Source: a virus
Direction: 5' to 3' (one strand)
Virus record (IMG/VR): IMGVR_UViG_3300044949_001148
Span: 1-36,545 of that record
DNA: 36,545 nucleotides
A model generated the notes under the pieces. It was given only the letters and a program-made list of their open reading frames with translations. It ran no database searches and was not told where the DNA came from. Below, piece by piece: positions 1,429-26,956 of the stretch (the first letter of the stretch is position 1; the number at the start of each line of letters is the position of its first letter). Position numbers and translations under genes: made by a program.

Positions 1429-3327
1429 TTAATTTATTACTAATTTTCCGTTTTGGTAACTTGAAGAAGGTATAAACAAAGATCCAGAAGAGTCTGATCC
1501 AGATTCTATAATATCAGGTATCATACTAATATCAACTTTATCATTATCTATTTTTAAGTATAAATCTTGAAGCCCTATAATATCATTAGACTCTGGAATA
1601 GCCGAAATTTGTAATATAGGAACTCCTCCACTAATTTTTAAACTTTCTTGAATATTTATTGGATATAACATTATTTCACCTTTAATATAATCAATATAAC
1701 CAATATCATCATTAATTATATTATAATCCATATCAGAGTATAAGTTGAACAAAATCATTCTACCTTCTCTGGAATCATTAGGAATGTCTGACAAATAGAC
1801 ATAATCATTGTATAAGCTTGATTTGAATCCAGTAGATTTTATATTGAATCCGGACAGATCTTTTATGTGTATTCTATTTCCAAAGCATATTTCATACTCT
1901 GCGTTTCTACCAATTCCAACCTTAAGGTCTCTTCTCATTCGTACTTTTGTAATATTTGAAGTTACTGCTTCATGAGAATCGTCAATTATTTTCTGATATT
2001 TACTATACTTAAAACGAGAACCATATTTATTAATTTCTGTCGATTTTGAATATGTTCTTACATTATTTTCAATCAATGTTTTTACGGCATCACTACTTAC
2101 TGCCTTATTAGAATCATAGTATACTTGGGATTCTGGTTCAATATAAAGATATTTGATATCAATTATTTCCGGTATAATTCCCGCAACACTATATTTGCTT
2201 AGAGAAGTCTTTATATTTTGTTTAATCGCATCTGGAACAAAATTACCATAGAATGGCTTTATTCCAACAAAAACTTTACCAAACTGTGGAGGATTTAAAC
2301 TTTCACCTCCAAATGAAGTTACTGATTCTGCTTCGGGATATATTTGAGGTATGATGGCCTCATAATCAGCTGCAGTTACTGCTCTATTTTGAGATGAATA
2401 AAATTTTGGAGCAAAGTTTTTAATCGAAGAAACTGATTCAATTTCCGAACCACCTTGTGATGGTTCATTTGTTGTTAATAAAGAAACTCCAGTACTAATT
2501 ACTTCTCCTCTATCATCAATAAGTCTACCAGAAAATTTAAATGTACCAAATCCATTTCCAGATTCTCCATTTGTTATGATATATGAGGCTTCAATAAAAT
2601 TTTTATCTTCTAATTTTTTTCCAAAATAACCATCCCCAAATATCAATTCATATTGCTGATCTTCAATTTCTTGAATATAAAATGCTTTTGATTGCGAATC
2701 TACATTTAGTATATTAGATGCTCTAAAATAAGAAGTAGCTACAGTACTGGTTTGATTACTTCTTACCAATACTCTAATTGAAGATGAATCAATATTTGGA
2801 TTTTCGAGTATGTATCTTTGATTTTTATTTGTAGAAGATACAATAAAATTGGTTGTTACATAATCTCCTTCAAGTATTTCGACATTTTCAAAAATAGCAA
2901 TTCCATTTACAACTGGAACTGTAATATCAGATACAATGGAAAAAATATAATTATTAGATGCGAATACGTTTGATGTTGCTACAACACCTTTTTTCAATGT
3001 CACCGATAATGCGTTTCTTGATGATACATCTACAAAGAAACTGACTTTGGCTTTAGCTGCTGATCTCGATCTTGGAACATAACCAATATTTCTGGCGAGT
3101 GCTACAACATTTTCTCTCAGTGTTGCACTGTCTATAAAAACCTCATTGCTAATCATATTAGCATTGTATGAGGAAATATACGTGTTATATGCTAATATAT
3201 CAATTAAAACGGATAAGTTTGAACCTTCAAAATCATAATCAGTAAAATCTGAATTTGATCTGAAGTAATCCTTAATCGTTTGTTTTATTTGATCGAAATC
3301 TAAATTCGTAAAGTTAGTAAGAGACAT
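1429..3327 (-). CDS. 6: Baseplate wedge protein gp6
   Basis: A 632-residue protein matching the T4 gp6 / phage baseplate J-like family in length and content. The N-terminus (MSLTNFTNLDFDQIKQTIKD) and the early block GSNLSVLIDILAYNTYISS are characteristic of gp6. In T4, gp6 dimers link the six wedges into the baseplate ring and drive the hexagon-to-star change on infection. Its ATG overlaps the gene 25 stop (TAATG), the order 25-6 seen in cyanophages, which implies translational coupling. It was probably transcribed late with gene 25 from the AATAAATA box at about 3754. Confidence 0.92.
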   Translation of the reverse strand: MSLTNFTNLDFDQIKQTIKDYFRSNSDFTDYDFEGSNLSVLIDILAYNTYISSYNANMISNEVFIDSATLRENVVALARNIGYVPRSRSAAKAKVSFFVDVSSRNALSVTLKKGVVATSNVFASNNYIFSIVSDITVPVVNGIAIFENVEILEGDYVTTNFIVSSTNKNQRYILENPNIDSSSIRVLVRSNQTSTVATSYFRASNILNVDSQSKAFYIQEIEDQQYELIFGDGYFGKKLEDKNFIEASYIITNGESGNGFGTFKFSGRLIDDRGEVISTGVSLLTTNEPSQGGSEIESVSSIKNFAPKFYSSQNRAVTAADYEAIIPQIYPEAESVTSFGGESLNPPQFGKVFVGIKPFYGNFVPDAIKQNIKTSLSKYSVAGIIPEIIDIKYLYIEPESQVYYDSNKAVSSDAVKTLIENNVRTYSKSTEINKYGSRFKYSKYQKIIDDSHEAVTSNITKVRMRRDLKVGIGRNAEYEICFGNRIHIKDLSGFNIKSTGFKSSLYNDYVYLSDIPNDSREGRMILFNLYSDMDYNIINDDIGYIDYIKGEIMLYPINIQESLKISGGVPILQISAIPESNDIIGLQDLYLKIDNDKVDISMIPDIIESGSDSSGSLFIPSSSYQNGKLVIN

Positions 3328-3728
3328 TATCGTGCCGATTGTAGTGCGAATGACAATTGTTGAGGAGATGCGTCAATTCCTACAATATTGTATATAACGA
3401 GAACATTAAATTCATTATCATCAAAATTTGGAGAGACTGTAACTTCAATCAATCTTACTCTTGGCTCATAATTTGTAATTGTATTTTCAATCTCTTCTTT
3501 TAATATTGACGCATTAATATCGTCAATATTTTCAAAAATACTTCTCCTTATATTAGATCCTAAGAATGGATTGAAAAATCTTTCTCCAGGAAAAGTATAG
3601 ACCAAATTGCGAATAGAGCGAGCAATAGCAGTCTCATTTTTTATAGTGATTAAGTCATAGTTAATCGGATTCACTTGCATTGACATGCTAATATCTTTAA
3701 AACTTTTACTGACTCGCTCTAAAGGCAT
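3327..3728 (-). CDS. 25: Baseplate wedge protein gp25
   Basis: A 133-residue protein of the gp25/lysozyme-like baseplate family (T4 gp25, COG3628-type). The family signature is visible as TFPGERFFNPFLGSNIRRS at about residues 45-63, followed by a basic-acidic amphipathic region and EPRVRLIEVTV. In contractile tails this small protein sits at the sheath-baseplate junction and starts sheath assembly. The size is normal (T4 gp25 is 132 residues). The stop overlaps the start of gene 6. The ATG at 3728 lies about 25 bases downstream of a late-promoter-like AATAAATA on the minus strand. Confidence 0.93.
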   Translation of the reverse strand: MPLERVSKSFKDISMSMQVNPINYDLITIKNETAIARSIRNLVYTFPGERFFNPFLGSNIRRSIFENIDDINASILKEEIENTITNYEPRVRLIEVTVSPNFDDNEFNVLVIYNIVGIDASPQQLSFALQSAR

Positions 3729-12917: not shown

Positions 12918-13403
12918 TTAGAACTGACAGTAGAACACATAACCGTCCTGAATGTCATAACTATCACGAAGATTCTCCCAAGTACCTTCCCAATCAATCA
13001 CGACATGCGGGGGAACATCACGCATAGGGTAGCATTCCTCTGTAATGTATTGTGCAAACTCCGCACCATCTGTGAACTCTCCTTGATACGATTCCTCGAA
13101 GTGTTCAATACACTCCACGCCATAAAGGTCGATGAAGGTATAGATGGCGTCATGCGAGTGACCTTCACGCATAAGGCGCAATACGTCCTCATTCTCCTCA
13201 TCATTCTCACTAACTGACTCCACGACGGTGTTAATCTTACCTTGAACAGTCAGCAACTCAGTGTAAAAATCAGTGAATTGCAGACGTTCTGTGCCATCAT
13301 CACGAGTGGAAACATAACCACAGGCCCGCACGATCTCACTGGCGGTGTTGCCAGCCTCGCGCATTTCGGTGACCTTAATGAGCAGTTCCTGACCTTTGAG
13401 CAT
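12918..13403 (-). CDS. ArdA-like putative anti-restriction protein with cyAbrB-like N-terminus
   Basis: The 161 residues appear to be a two-part protein. Residues 1-55 (KGQELLIKVTEMR, IVRACGYVSTRDDG, LQFTDFYTELLTVQGK) resemble the N-terminal part of cyanobacterial cyAbrB proteins. Residues 70-161 are acidic and carry ArdA-type signatures: FEESYQGEFTDGAEFAQYI, a TEE, then PPHVVIDWEGTWENL and a terminal DGYVF. ArdA proteins mimic bent DNA and block type I restriction enzymes. The length matches ArdA (about 165), but the N-terminal ArdA domain seems replaced. Start ATG 13403; TACACT promoter with hairpin leader upstream. Activity is inference. Confidence 0.7.
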   Translation of the reverse strand: MLKGQELLIKVTEMREAGNTASEIVRACGYVSTRDDGTERLQFTDFYTELLTVQGKINTVVESVSENDEENEDVLRLMREGHSHDAIYTFIDLYGVECIEHFEESYQGEFTDGAEFAQYITEECYPMRDVPPHVVIDWEGTWENLRDSYDIQDGYVFYCQF

Positions 13404-15771: not shown

Positions 15772-15936
15772 TTACCAATCAATGTCAAAGTCTTCAACAT
15801 AGGCTTCTACCTTTTCATTAGGCTCTAGTTTGAATAGTTTATCAAAATCAATCTGACGTGGATCAAAATCTGACATAACTTCCATATCTAAAGTAATGCG
15901 AACACGGCGCTTCTGTGCTAGTTGATAGGAAACCAT
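15772..15936 (-). CDS. Conserved small protein (54 aa)
   Basis: The 54 residues begin MVSYQLAQKRRVRITLDMEV and contain MSDFDPRQIDFDKLFKLEPN and EKVEAYVEDFDIDW. The RITLDMEVMSDFDPRQID segment is a recurrent small cyanophage protein type. It is the last gene before the repeat/DnaA-box region, with no gene from here to 16578. Function unknown. Confidence 0.75.
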   Translation of the reverse strand: MVSYQLAQKRRVRITLDMEVMSDFDPRQIDFDKLFKLEPNEKVEAYVEDFDIDW

Positions 15937-16078
15937 AAGAACTTTGAAGTAACTGGATACAGTATAAGACCTAAGGCTCCCCCCGTCAAGAGGGTGAGAG
16001 TATTTATGAGGATCTCTTATGGTTTGCGAGATCTTATGTAGATTTTTTAATCTCGGGGATTTTGGGATTCCGGGGGGC

Positions 16079-16107
16079 TTGACATTTTTGAGGCCTTATG
16101 GTATAAT
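16079..16107 (+). promoter_or_regulatory. Perfect sigma70 promoter on the plus strand
   Basis: TTGACA at 16079-16084, 17-base spacer, TATAAT at 16102-16107. It is the only strong promoter pointing rightwards in a window where every gene is on the minus strand, and it reads straight into the TTATAA repeat array. The first bases after -35, TTTTT, also follow TTGACA at 27006. Confidence 0.85.
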
Positions 16108-16136
16108 GCGGGCTAAGACCACAAGACCCTGAGGGC

Positions 16137-16330
16137 TTTATAAGGTATTATAAAGGTATTATAAGAGGTTTATAAGGTTTATAAGGTTTATAAGGTATTA
16201 TAAGAGGTTTATAAGGTATTATAAGAGGTTTATAAGGTATTATAAGAGGTTTATAAGGTATTATAAGAGGTTTATAAGGTTTATAAGGTTTATAAAAGTA
16301 TTATAAGAGGTTTATAAAGGTATTATAAGA
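16137..16330 (+). repeat. Tandem array of about 19 TTATAA-centred units
   Basis: Units alternate between TTTATAAGG (9 bases) and TATTATAAGAGG (12 bases), giving a higher-order unit of 21 bases in the middle; a few units vary (TATTATAAAGG, TTTATAAAAG). Degenerate copies continue to about 16370. The array has no gene on either strand. Confidence 0.95.
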
Positions 16331-16422
16331 GACATTACGAATAGAATATAAGACATTATAAGAGATTTTATATCGTTTTTACAGAGAAGACTACGAATAC
16401 AAATATAAACAATTATAACAAG

Positions 16423-16431
16423 TTTTCCACA
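16423..16431 (+). promoter_or_regulatory. DnaA-box-like TTTTCCACA, box 1
   Basis: An exact match to the TTTTCCACA form of the DnaA box used in cyanobacteria, followed by GATTATAAGG. Confidence 0.6.
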
Positions 16432-16464
16432 GATTATAAGGGTTTTAACACATAAAACAATAGG

Positions 16465-16486
16465 TTTTCCACAACCTTGTGGAAAA
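16465..16486. promoter_or_regulatory. DnaA-box-like boxes 2 and 3, convergent pair
   Basis: TTTTCCACA (16465-16473) and TGTGGAAAA (16478-16486) face each other around ACCT, forming a 22-base inverted repeat. Confidence 0.65.
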
Positions 16487-16538
16487 GATACAACACGCAA
16501 CTATATTTTTTAATACATTTTTAATTGTTTTTTAACAT

Positions 16539-16568
16539 AAAAAAACCTTCAGTATTACCTGAAAGTCT
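16539..16568 (-). terminator. Rho-independent terminator after 16578-16802
   Basis: TTCAGG/CCTTCAG-type stem followed by an uninterrupted T run on the minus strand (seven T). Confidence 0.8.
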
Positions 16569-16577
16569 TATAAAAAC

Positions 16578-16802
16578 TCAGTTCTTATAATAATAACCAA
16601 GTGTCTTCATAACATCAATCAACTGATTATGAACCTTCTCTACTTCTTCCCTTTCATCATCATCCATAGATTCATAATCAACAAAATCAAGTTCTTCTAC
16701 ATTAACAGTACCGTCCTGATACTGAGGAGCATAATACAATTCACCTTCCGTATCAATGGAATAAGCGCAACCATGATTTTCGGGAATGAGAAGAATGTTC
16801 AT
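16578..16802 (-). CDS. Hypothetical acidic protein (74 aa)
   Basis: The 74 residues begin MNILLIPENHGCAYSIDTEG. The middle and C-terminus are strongly acidic (VEELDFVDYESMDDDEREEV). ATG 16802 follows a TATATT-AAGAGA-GTTCAA cassette. The acidic surface would fit a DNA-mimic type inhibitor, but there is no specific evidence. Confidence 0.75.
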   Translation of the reverse strand: MNILLIPENHGCAYSIDTEGELYYAPQYQDGTVNVEELDFVDYESMDDDEREEVEKVHNQLIDVMKTLGYYYKN

Positions 16803-22355: not shown

Positions 22356-23249
22356 TCACATAAAATGATCATCTAGGGTAATTTCACGAGTATTTCCTTC
22401 TGTTTCAATTCGTTTCTTCGCAATATCGCAATAATGCTGACTCAAATCAATTCCAACAAATTCTCTATTTTCACGAATAGCAGCAACTCCAGTGGTGCCA
22501 CTGCCACAGAAGGGGTCAAGCACAATTGAATTTTCAGGAGAATAGATTTTAATCAAATAAGACATCAAATCCACTGGTTTGACTGTAGGATGATCATTAT
22601 CTGTTCCCTTTTCTTTACGTGTCGCACGAGGAGCATAAAAATACTTTTGATGCTCAGTTTGAACTTCACCAACAATATTAGAAGGATACCTACCATTAGG
22701 ATTGGCATCTACAGTTCCAAATTCTTTTCCACTTCCTGTTGTTTTGCCATCTTTTCCGAATGTGCGTCGTTTTGCACCTTGAGCAACCCAACCTTTTGGA
22801 GGTTTCTTATCCCATGGAACACGAGTGGTTTCTGTATCAATTAGACCGCAACCCCACTTCTCATGATTATTCTTAAGAGATCCTTCATAAGGTTTTTGAG
22901 CAACAACAATAGGTTCATGTGCTGGCTTAAGACGATTAAACTTTGGCATCTTAGTTGTTGTCATCCACATGATCTGATCCTTAATTACAAATCCAGCATC
23001 TTCAACATTTACCGCCATACGATGATAAAGTTCAGGAGAACAAAATGATAAACAAAATGCTCCTGGGCGAAGAACACGAATAACTTCTTTCCAAATGTCT
23101 ACACTCGGAACAGCATGATCCCACTCTTCACCAACAATATCCATGCCATATGGCGGATCAGTTATACAAGAATGAAAAAAATTCTCCCCATAAGAGGGGA
23201 GAATGGATTGGCAATCGCCAGTTAGAATATTGAAATTATTGGAGCACAT
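22356..23249 (-). CDS. DNA methyltransferase, beta-class (N6-adenine or N4-cytosine)
   Basis: The 297 residues carry motif IV DPPYGMD at 31-37, directly after the N-terminal ILTGDC, and the cofactor motif DPFCGSGTTG at about 245-254. This order (DPPY first, FxGxG last) marks the beta class of amino-methyltransferases, which transfer a methyl group from S-adenosylmethionine to the exocyclic N of adenine or cytosine. The target-recognition region between 100 and 200 contains the Lys-rich PHWDKKPPKGW-type segment. The ATG overlaps the end of the 419-aa gene by 14 bases, so the two are coupled. It probably protects phage DNA from restriction, including by the neighbouring nuclease. Specificity is unknown. 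Confidence 0.9.
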   Translation of the reverse strand: MCSNNFNILTGDCQSILPSYGENFFHSCITDPPYGMDIVGEEWDHAVPSVDIWKEVIRVLRPGAFCLSFCSPELYHRMAVNVEDAGFVIKDQIMWMTTTKMPKFNRLKPAHEPIVVAQKPYEGSLKNNHEKWGCGLIDTETTRVPWDKKPPKGWVAQGAKRRTFGKDGKTTGSGKEFGTVDANPNGRYPSNIVGEVQTEHQKYFYAPRATRKEKGTDNDHPTVKPVDLMSYLIKIYSPENSIVLDPFCGSGTTGVAAIRENREFVGIDLSQHYCDIAKKRIETEGNTREITLDDHFM

Positions 23250-24495
23250 TATAAGGTTCTATTCCGTTTGCTTGCGAAAGCCATTTTACATCAATTGGCT
23301 TAATTTGTCCATCACGGTAAGCATCAGCCACTTTACAACAATGAGTCAGATAAGTTTTACGATTACTTTCCATTTCTACGCGACGTGAACTGATATTTTC
23401 TTCAGTTGGTTGAACATCTACACCACTACCTTGTTCAAGAAAATAATAAGCTTTTATGTCAGCATCTTTATTTTTAAGTTGGTGCTCAAACATCCAGAAA
23501 AGTTTACGATAATGATCATATGGGCGACCCCATCCCATAACGAAATCATATTCACCCAGTTTCACTCCATATTTTTCAATTAGGGCTTTTTTTGCGCTCT
23601 TTTCGTCATAAGGTTCAATAGAAACTCTAATTCCCTCTTCTGCAAGAATTTCAGCAACAAAAACACGGCGATCTTTCTTGCGAGTTTCTTTATAATTTTT
23701 CAAAAGAACTTCATATACTGCTTCTTCAGTCTTTTCAATTTCACCGTATTTGAAACCAAGAAGAATCATATTCTTGACATCATTAGGCGTACAGTCATTT
23801 TTTTTCTCTTTAGATGGATTATTTGCCATAGTGCCGAATTGAAGCAGAGAGTACTCACTTTTACCCTCAATTAGAGCACAAGGGAAATGATTCCAAGGAA
23901 GTTCAAAACGATTGTTACCGTCACGAACAATATACTTATACACTTTCCCACAGTATTCAATCGGAGAGTCTAATTCAGAAATAGCGGGTTGATAGCAATG
24001 ATAATCATAGCCATCATTGATAATACTATCCCGAATATTATTTTGAGTACCCTTAAATAGTGCTTGACCGACACGAGTTTGACAAGGAATATCAAGTTCA
24101 CGCGCAATCGTGTGCGACATCACCTCATTTTTATCAGCAATCATCCACTTTTTGAAAGTGATACCAGGAGCAGATGTGGTTTTCGTTTTATCATTCCACA
24201 TGATAATACGACCATGACGCTCAAGCATTTCTAAAGAAAAAATATTATCATTATAATTAATATCTTCTGTGGGATTTAGATAATATGTTCCATTGTAGTC
24301 AACAAATGTCAAAAGTTTATCATCACGAAGTTCCTGAACATCTCTGAGAACTCCAGAGTTTGGAGCTTCTAAATTACTATAAATTGTGGAAGAAATATTA
24401 GAAAGATGCTCGTAGATTTCCTGAACATGGAACTCTACTTCTGGTCGGAAAGTTTCTTTCAAAATATCGAGAAGTTGTGATTTTGTGGGGCTCAT
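23236..24495 (-). CDS. Winged-helix/ParB-like protein of the restriction-modification-like cluster (419 aa)
   Basis: I do not recognise a named family. Residues 1-75 (HVQEIYEHLSNISSTIYS, GVLRDVQELRDDKLLTFVD) look like a winged-helix DNA-binding domain. Around 188-200 the segment YIVRDGNNRFELPW resembles the DGNHR motif of ParB/sulfiredoxin-like domains, which bind or hydrolyse nucleotides. C-terminal residues 250-419 are mixed helix/strand. It sits between the nuclease gene (35 bases upstream) and the methyltransferase (14-base overlap). A regulator, a specificity factor or a nuclease partner is possible; none is proven. Confidence 0.65.
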   Translation of the reverse strand: MSPTKSQLLDILKETFRPEVEFHVQEIYEHLSNISSTIYSNLEAPNSGVLRDVQELRDDKLLTFVDYNGTYYLNPTEDINYNDNIFSLEMLERHGRIIMWNDKTKTTSAPGITFKKWMIADKNEVMSHTIARELDIPCQTRVGQALFKGTQNNIRDSIINDGYDYHCYQPAISELDSPIEYCGKVYKYIVRDGNNRFELPWNHFPCALIEGKSEYSLLQFGTMANNPSKEKKNDCTPNDVKNMILLGFKYGEIEKTEEAVYEVLLKNYKETRKKDRRVFVAEILAEEGIRVSIEPYDEKSAKKALIEKYGVKLGEYDFVMGWGRPYDHYRKLFWMFEHQLKNKDADIKAYYFLEQGSGVDVQPTEENISSRRVEMESNRKTYLTHCCKVADAYRDGQIKPIDVKWLSQANGIEPYNVLQ

Positions 24496-25771: not shown

Positions 25772-26956
25772 TTACTTTTCGATAACACAGTCTAGCATTT
25801 CACCCTTCTCAAATACAGTATCAACTACATTTTGAAGAGCCTTTTCAGTTGCGATACCAGTCTTAGAATATACTGGAACAACGCACAAGCCAAAAGTTTT
25901 CGATTCATTACCAGTCCTCAGCACACGCCCAATAGTTTGGGTCATTTCAATCACATCCATGTTGCGAAGGAACACAACAGCTTCAAGTTCGCTTACATTG
26001 ATACCTTCACTTAGAATTGAACGATGAAGACACACAAACTTCTTAGAAGGATCTTTACCCCAAGAATTGAGTGTATCAAAGAATACTTCTCGATTTACCT
26101 TCCTACCATCAATTACAGCACCTGTTTTGGAAGTGATGTAAAGATAGGAATAACCGCGACATTTTAGCTGAAGGCAAAAATTAGTATCGCTGATTAGATT
26201 TGTAAGTTGGCTGGTTGTTTTGGCGCAAACAAGAATCTTTTTACAGCCTGTTTCATCAATCGTACTCATCAAGTTCTCGTTATCAGACTCTGAAGTAATC
26301 TGTTTAGAGTCAATAACTTCAAACTTCTTGGATACAATTTTAGGAGCAACAATATATCCACCATCAACAAGTTCTGGGGCTGTTACCCTACAAATAATAT
26401 CACCATAAACTTCACGATCATTCATACCGGGTTTGGTAAGAGTTTGTGATGTTTTTCTTGTTGCCGTGAAGAAATAACAACGCTTTGCATTAAAGGAGAA
26501 GTGCTCTGTTGCGGGGAAGAAATTACGCTTTACGCTGTTATGAGCCTCATCAAAGTAAATTGTATCAACATCAATACCAGAATCAACAACTCGTTGAAGA
26601 GAATTGTACGTTGTGAAAATAAGTTGATGAGAATTAGTCTCTTTACATAGAATATCGTGCGCTTTGATGTGAGATGGTTTTGTCGTGTTATAGTGGCTGG
26701 TTTCTCCACTATGAACATGAATTACTTCAGCATTGATGATAAACTCCAAAAACTCAGAACAAAGTTGTTCCGCAAGCAAAATGCGAGGAGCAACAACAAC
26801 AATTGTCTGTGTGGTTTTAGTTTGAAACTCTCGTAGACAATCATAGATCATCTTGAGAGTTTTACCTCCACCAGTTGGAACAATAATTTGGCCTTTATCA
26901 TGCTGTTCCATAGCAGCAACGCCACGCTTTTGGGATGGACGAAGTTGGATGTTCAT
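25772..26956 (-). CDS. SF2 DNA/RNA helicase (DEAH-type)
   Basis: The 394 residues have superfamily 2 helicase motifs: Walker A PTGGGKT (27-33), Ia IVVVAPRILLAEQL (about 52-65), TYNSLQRV (about 116-123), DEAH (136-139), FTATR (III-like, about 155-160) and a VI-like MTQTIGRVLRTG near 330. The two RecA-like domains are complete, so it should unwind nucleic acids using ATP. T4-like phages use such enzymes in recombination-dependent replication and branch migration (UvsW). Its own perfect consensus promoter at 26978-27006 suggests strong early expression. It lies beside the nuclease cluster, but its role in it is uncertain. Confidence 0.85.
   Translation of the reverse strand: MNIQLRPSQKRGVAAMEQHDKGQIIVPTGGGKTLKMIYDCLREFQTKTTQTIVVVAPRILLAEQLCSEFLEFIINAEVIHVHSGETSHYNTTKPSHIKAHDILCKETNSHQLIFTTYNSLQRVVDSGIDVDTIYFDEAHNSVKRNFFPATEHFSFNAKRCYFFTATRKTSQTLTKPGMNDREVYGDIICRVTAPELVDGGYIVAPKIVSKKFEVIDSKQITSESDNENLMSTIDETGCKKILVCAKTTSQLTNLISDTNFCLQLKCRGYSYLYITSKTGAVIDGRKVNREVFFDTLNSWGKDPSKKFVCLHRSILSEGINVSELEAVVFLRNMDVIEMTQTIGRVLRTGNESKTFGLCVVPVYSKTGIATEKALQNVVDTVFEKGEMLDCVIEK

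Follow-up and report, generated by a model that had tools for sequence, protein, structure and literature searches.

A conserved non-coding element of T4-like cyanophages with a possible role as a transcription-activated replication origin

Kyanoviridae rank with the most common viruses that infect marine picocyanobacteria, and the part of the literature that was searched contained neither a replication origin for T4-like cyanophages nor an earlier description of the element analyzed here. The locus is a gene-free block of 641 bp (15937-16577) in the window, the whole 36,545-bp stretch of an IMG/VR virus record that was studied, and it raises the question of what a block carrying a promoter, repeats and DnaA-type boxes does in a phage genome. 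A sequence-only reading had suggested a replication origin. Judged by sequence comparison, the block is a diverged version of a non-coding element conserved among T4-like cyanophages, and replication origin is the best reading of that element, one that is probably correct. An element defined to 100-500 bp makes the origin question in the Kyanoviridae testable by standard methods, for instance in S-PM2, Syn1 or S-SM2.

Layout of the block

Genes for gp6 and gp25 were present in the window, indicating a T4-like cyanophage of the Kyanoviridae, the family to which its closest DNA relatives belong. The features of the block and its surroundings are as follows.

1429-3728, minus strand: gp6 (1429-3327) and gp25 (3327-3728), two baseplate genes that serve as synteny anchor, on the opposite strand and 12.3 kb from the element
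15772-15936, minus strand: left flanking gene, 54 aa, PHROG 12516, a family with no assigned function
15961-15989, minus strand: divergent sigma-70-type promoter TTGACG-17-TATACT, situated to drive the left gene
16079-16107, plus strand: sigma-70-type promoter TTGACA-17-TATAAT with TG ahead of the -10, antisense to the genes on both sides
16108-16128, plus strand: GC-rich spacer and start region GCGGGCTAAGACCACAAGACC, conserved, with GCACGCTAAGATAACAA as the relatives' version
16137-16330, plus strand: 19 TTATAA units in an array built mainly of AGGTTTATAAGGTATTATAAG (21 bp)
16423-16431, plus strand: DnaA-type box 1, TTTTCCACA
16465-16473, plus strand: DnaA-type box 2, left half of the palindrome TTTTCCACAACCTTGTGGAAAA
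16478-16486, minus strand: DnaA-type box 3, right half of the palindrome TTTTCCACAACCTTGTGGAAAA
16502-16546, plus strand: AT-rich tract, conserved, a candidate unwinding element
16542-16569, minus strand: predicted terminator-like hairpin, ending the minus-strand genes that come from the right
16578-16802, minus strand: right flanking gene, 74 aa, PHROG 4138, a family with no assigned function

The promoter, array and boxes described by the sequence-only reading were all found where it had placed them when the sequence was read directly and the units counted. The limits of the block are exact, running from the start of the left gene to the end of the right gene, both on the minus strand. No plus-strand ORF of at least 30 aa begins downstream of the plus promoter inside the block, which is therefore a divergent-promoter gap whose plus-strand transcript would carry no gene. 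The hairpin would screen the block from transcription of the minus-strand genes lying to the right; by eye, a similar hairpin was seen in S-SM2, and a gene like the left flanking one also borders the block in S-SM2 and S-SRM01. Database records are either empty at the element site or have small hypothetical proteins or tRNAs annotated there. In S-PM2 (AJ630128 19177-19333; 2978-3134 of our extract L006) tRNA-Asn and tRNA-Leu are annotated across the conserved boxes and AT tract, and these annotations look spurious.

Direct reading confirmed the perfect plus-strand promoter, with the -35 TTGACA at 16079-16084, a 17-base spacer and the -10 TATAAT at 16102-16107. It aligns with its counterparts in relatives; in some family members the -10 is a weak TAAGMC. 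A second perfect TTGACA-17-TATAAT lies on the minus strand at 27006-26978, directly upstream of a helicase-like gene (25772-26956), and because the window has two of them the promoter by itself is weak evidence. Perfect TTGACA-16/18-TATAAT is expected 0.025 times per window versus 2 observed. When the window was simulated 200 times with a first-order Markov model, TTTTCCACA occurred a mean of 0.8 times per simulated window and a triple within 70 bp arose in none. In the real sequence TTTTCCACA has exactly three copies in the whole 36,545-bp record, all of them in the block, and two form the palindrome at 16465-16486 as previously described. Together, promoter, array and boxes are strong evidence. 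As a separate observation made by eye, several relatives (L155, L156, L158, L160 and L161) have an extra inverted repeat just upstream of the plus-strand -35, for example GTGCCACTTTGAGGTCTGGCAC, the arms of which vary among phages and remain largely complementary.

The count of 19 array units stood, and the description of alternating 9- and 12-base forms proved only roughly right: between 16138 and 16328 the measured spacing of the TTATAA units is 9-11 bp (mean about 10.3), with a main period of 21 (10+11) and a spacing close to the helical repeat. On the plus strand the 194-nt array contains 42 G and 0 C. A large array is not a conserved part of the element. Relatives hold TTATAAGR one to five times at the same place, often within tandem repeats of their own with another unit, indicating that the array is a local expansion of this motif, and the exact unit of the window was absent from all other viral contigs searched. 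The G-over-C bias of the transcribed region is 0.69 in the window versus -0.29 to +0.23 in the others, and a C-free transcript was rejected as a family-wide trait, having been seen in the window only. Possibly the array favours a stable RNA-DNA hybrid.

Conservation and genomic position

When the block was used as a blastn query, weak matches to S-BM3, S-PM2 and S-SRM01 were obtained together with a chance match to a rat microvirus. The same kinds of parts were readable by eye at the sites matched in the three cyanophages, and a further search with the S-PM2 copy returned dozens of Kyanoviridae, after which 14 further relatives were added and all copies compared. They have in common TTGAC(A/T) followed after 17 bases by a -10, a start region near GCTAAGMYNACWA, an AT tract near TATnTTTTTTAATACATTT and a set of boxes, so that the parts of the element are a promoter with a conserved start region, optional TTATAAGR repeats, a box cassette and an AT-rich tract. 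The boxes precede the AT tract in the window, S-BM3, S-SM2 and S-SRM01 and follow it in S-PM2, Syn1, S-RIM32, S-CAM1, S-H38, S-H35 and DSL-LC02. The promoter is antisense to both neighbouring genes, with the exception of S-BM3, where two plus-strand ORFs lie just downstream. Matches of S-CREM1 near 18.1 kb of the window were found to have no relation to the block.

Leave-one-out profiles were built for S-PM2, Syn1, S-SM2, S-RSM4, P-TIM68, S-H38, S-CREM1, S-BM3 and the window, and the element was the top match in all nine, with E values from 8e-39 to 6e-4 (4e-14 for the window) and the runner-up site at least 1000 times weaker in each genome. Among 147 viral-contig loci picked either for a box palindrome only or for a box together with an AT tract, the promoter not being a criterion, the profile matched 113, and 91 of these matches include the promoter. 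ORFs flanking the 91 loci lie opposite to the promoter rather than on its strand in 72 versus 14 cases on the left and 67 versus 13 on the right, counts that rest on mechanically called ORFs and are noisy. The converse search, with a promoter-only pattern that ignored the boxes, returned 12 viral loci, four of them near-identical, and downstream of these were TTATAAGR repeats, an AT-rich tract and, in most, a box palindrome that could be recognised. Absence of the block from close relatives would have spoken against the earlier proposal; it was present in all Kyanoviridae examined, and conservation of the element is close to certain.

The gp25-gp6 gene pair was located in 18/18 complete cyanophages, and in every one the element lies upstream of gp25 on the opposite strand, at a distance of 2.4-10.5 kb compared with 12.3 kb in the window. 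Between 6400 and 14000 the window has a G+C content of 50-64%, versus about 38% elsewhere; parts of it show similarity to S-SRM01, to cyanophage S-2L and to Pbunavirus-type Pseudomonas phages, and at 12918-13403 there is a match to an anti-restriction family. This region is likely inserted cargo that separates the element from gp25, or else the product of a mixed assembly. Elsewhere in the window, at 22356-24495 on the minus strand, the gene for a Type II-like DNA methyltransferase and a 419-aa gene with no assigned family overlap, possibly as a restriction-modification pair.

The core of the AT-rich tract, TATATTTTTTAATACATTT (16502-16520), is identical in S-PM2. With 0-2 mismatches it was found at the element in 5/9 sequences, and a single 2-mismatch match lay elsewhere (in S-RSM4). 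The 50-bp stretch of lowest stability in the element is among the weakest 0.02-2.8% of each genome, duplex stability being very low in S-SM2, P-TIM68 and S-BM3 and moderately low in Syn1, S-RSM4 and S-CREM1. Cumulative GC skew, which had been put forward as a check over the whole genome, reaches no extreme at this site in any of 8 complete genomes; it is a weak test here because replication of these phages is recombination-driven and their gene order one-sided.

A strong, conserved promoter and start region followed by no ORF would also suit a gene for a regulatory non-coding RNA that works through its repeats, either antisense to the neighbouring genes or on other targets, and antisense transcription has been reported in T4-like cyanophages (PMC10976474, discussion). 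RNAalifold nevertheless gave 0 consensus pairs, no Rfam family reached its gathering score in 117 kb and the transcribed repeats turn over among relatives. The boxes of Syn1, S-CAM1 and S-H38, moreover, are direct repeats only and hence form no RNA hairpin; on this ground, and for want of a consensus pair, the box palindrome was rejected as an RNA hairpin. A non-coding RNA gene accordingly appears improbable.

The box cassette and its candidate partners

Most cyanobacteria have TTTTCCACA as their DnaA box (PMC4674748), in agreement with its earlier description as the cyanobacterial form. The palindrome TTTTCCACAACCTTGTGGAAAA is kept in S-BM3 and S-PM2, and in those complete genomes that have clusters of at least two TTTTCCACA these lie solely at or beside the element. 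In S-PM2, Syn1, S-CAM1, S-H38, S-RIM32 and DSL-LC02 the boxes recur at a 12-bp period, from which the window differs. When the pair TTTTCCACAnntTTTTCCACA, which several phages carry, was searched for in bacterial genomes, 8/10 cyanobacterial loci examined adjoin dnaN (6) or dnaA (2); of the other two, one lies beside a transposase gene. Second TTTTCCACA palindromes were observed 0.2-1 kb from the element, beyond the main profile match, in S-RIM32 (61859-61880), P-TIM68 (58194-58216) and S-CREM1 (88401-88432).

A cluster of DnaA boxes next to the AT-rich tract is present in the window and in most relatives examined but not in S-RSM4, S-H9-1, S-WAM2, S-CAM4, S-MbCM7 and S-SRM01. Five of these (S-RSM4, S-H9-1, S-WAM2, S-MbCM7 and S-SRM01) have TTGATTCTCA/TTATTGAGAA-type palindromes in place of DnaA boxes, the S-CAM4 element has neither, and GATACGAATTCGTATC-like palindromes were seen by eye in contigs L369, L371 and L379. 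TTGATTCTCAATA is likewise a palindrome and a candidate site for a protein partner. Box type differs even between phages sharing a host strain, as in S-PM2 and S-MbCM7 on WH7803 and S-H38 and S-H9-1 on MW02, indicating that the box cassette is exchangeable. Host DnaA is thus no universal requirement, several relatives having a different palindromic box at the same site, and from the sequences it would be one among several cassette partners, if there is any partner at all. As no phage-encoded DnaA DNA-binding domain was found in 18 cyanophage genomes, any DnaA acting here must be the host's. The gp59 helicase loader, checked as a correlate of box type, was detected in 9/18, some of the others being perhaps too diverged; a PF21530 search gave no match anywhere, controls included.

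Clustered consensus boxes in phages with no DnaA gene of their own would be expected if the element were a trap that titrates host DnaA and so stops replication of the host chromosome. There are just 2-5 boxes at a single site, the promoter and AT tract are conserved although a trap could do without them, and relatives on the same host strains have different boxes (the WH7803 and MW02 pairs above), which makes this very improbable.

The exchange of different palindromes also resembles that of operators, and DnaA can work as a transcription factor in bacteria. The element could on these grounds be a control region for transcription only, with divergent early promoters and with boxes serving as operators through which DnaA or another regulator tunes the antisense promoter and the leftward early genes. 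Strong back-to-back sigma-70 promoters are indeed present in the window and in S-H35, S-SM2, S-BM3, S-CAM1, ACG-2014g and S-H38. However, the strong divergent promoter is missing from some of the relatives compared, the boxes lie downstream of the plus promoter with none at the minus promoter, and the conserved AT tract and fixed site near gp25-gp6 would be left unexplained. We regard a control region as unlikely, though less so than the non-coding RNA or the trap, and all three account for fewer of the parts than an origin does.

The origin reading and known origins

Taken as a whole, the sequence comparisons suggest that the block is likely to be a replication origin of the transcription-activated T4 type, to which host DnaA would be recruited in many lineages. 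What upholds the earlier proposal of an origin is the syntenic block of promoter, boxes and AT tract in all Kyanoviridae examined, the matching site of T4 oriE and the oriC-like box spacing of several relatives; not borne out were a skew extreme at the site, the large array as the conserved part and a universal need for host DnaA. More tentatively, the whole family may share a modular origin in which promoter and AT tract are constant and the initiator cassette, whether host DnaA boxes or sites for other proteins, is exchangeable, a possibility to which we give rather less than even weight.

In such an origin, host RNA polymerase would early in infection transcribe from 16079 across the C-free array towards the boxes and AT tract, and the array RNA would be likely to remain paired with its template. 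Host DnaA on the boxes would help to open the AT-rich DNA, or keep it open, and may stall the polymerase. The RNA end could then prime the first leading strand before the phage helicase-primase takes over. Where relatives have other palindromes, the role of DnaA would fall to another DNA-binding protein. If true, a T4-like phage using host DnaA would couple its replication to the initiation system of the host, T4-style RNA-primed initiation would be joined with the host's own initiator, and the swappable cassette would constitute a natural experiment in initiator change.

The annotation of T4 places oriE 1.7 kb upstream of gp6 and gives it the minus direction, with a primer RNA antisense to gene 5. 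The cyanophage element likewise lies upstream of gp6 with a promoter antisense to the baseplate genes, an arrangement found in 18/18 cyanophages and the window. Direct repeats and an early promoter are described for T4 oriE (PMC3016281), and the cyanophage element similarly combines a presumably early host-type promoter with evenly spaced direct repeats. The repeats found at oriE, however, are 24-nt coding repeats in gene 5, within which this origin sits, whereas the cyanophage element is a separate non-coding block, and DnaA boxes or a free-standing AT tract are not described for oriE. The likeness of the two sites is one of place and orientation. T4 has at least five origins, so the common position is suggestive and not proof; the oriE-like site could be coincidence, to which our own estimate assigns a small but appreciable chance.

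For T4 oriF and oriG a promoter and an AT-rich unwinding element suffice, and an RNA-DNA hybrid at the latter primes replication (PMC3016281). These R-loop origins of about 100 bp share with the cyanophage element the order of promoter then AT-rich tract, the plus promoter of the latter reading into its tract within about 100-500 bp. They differ in having MotA-dependent middle promoters, where the cyanophage element has a host-type promoter with consensus -35 and -10 and a box cassette. With cyanobacterial oriC the element has in common the TTTTCCACA boxes and, in several phages, the 12-bp-period pair that also adjoins dnaN or dnaA there. Unlike oriC, the phage element has fewer boxes and no nearby dnaA or dnaN, a strong promoter reads into its boxes, and in many phage relatives those boxes are swapped for other palindromes.
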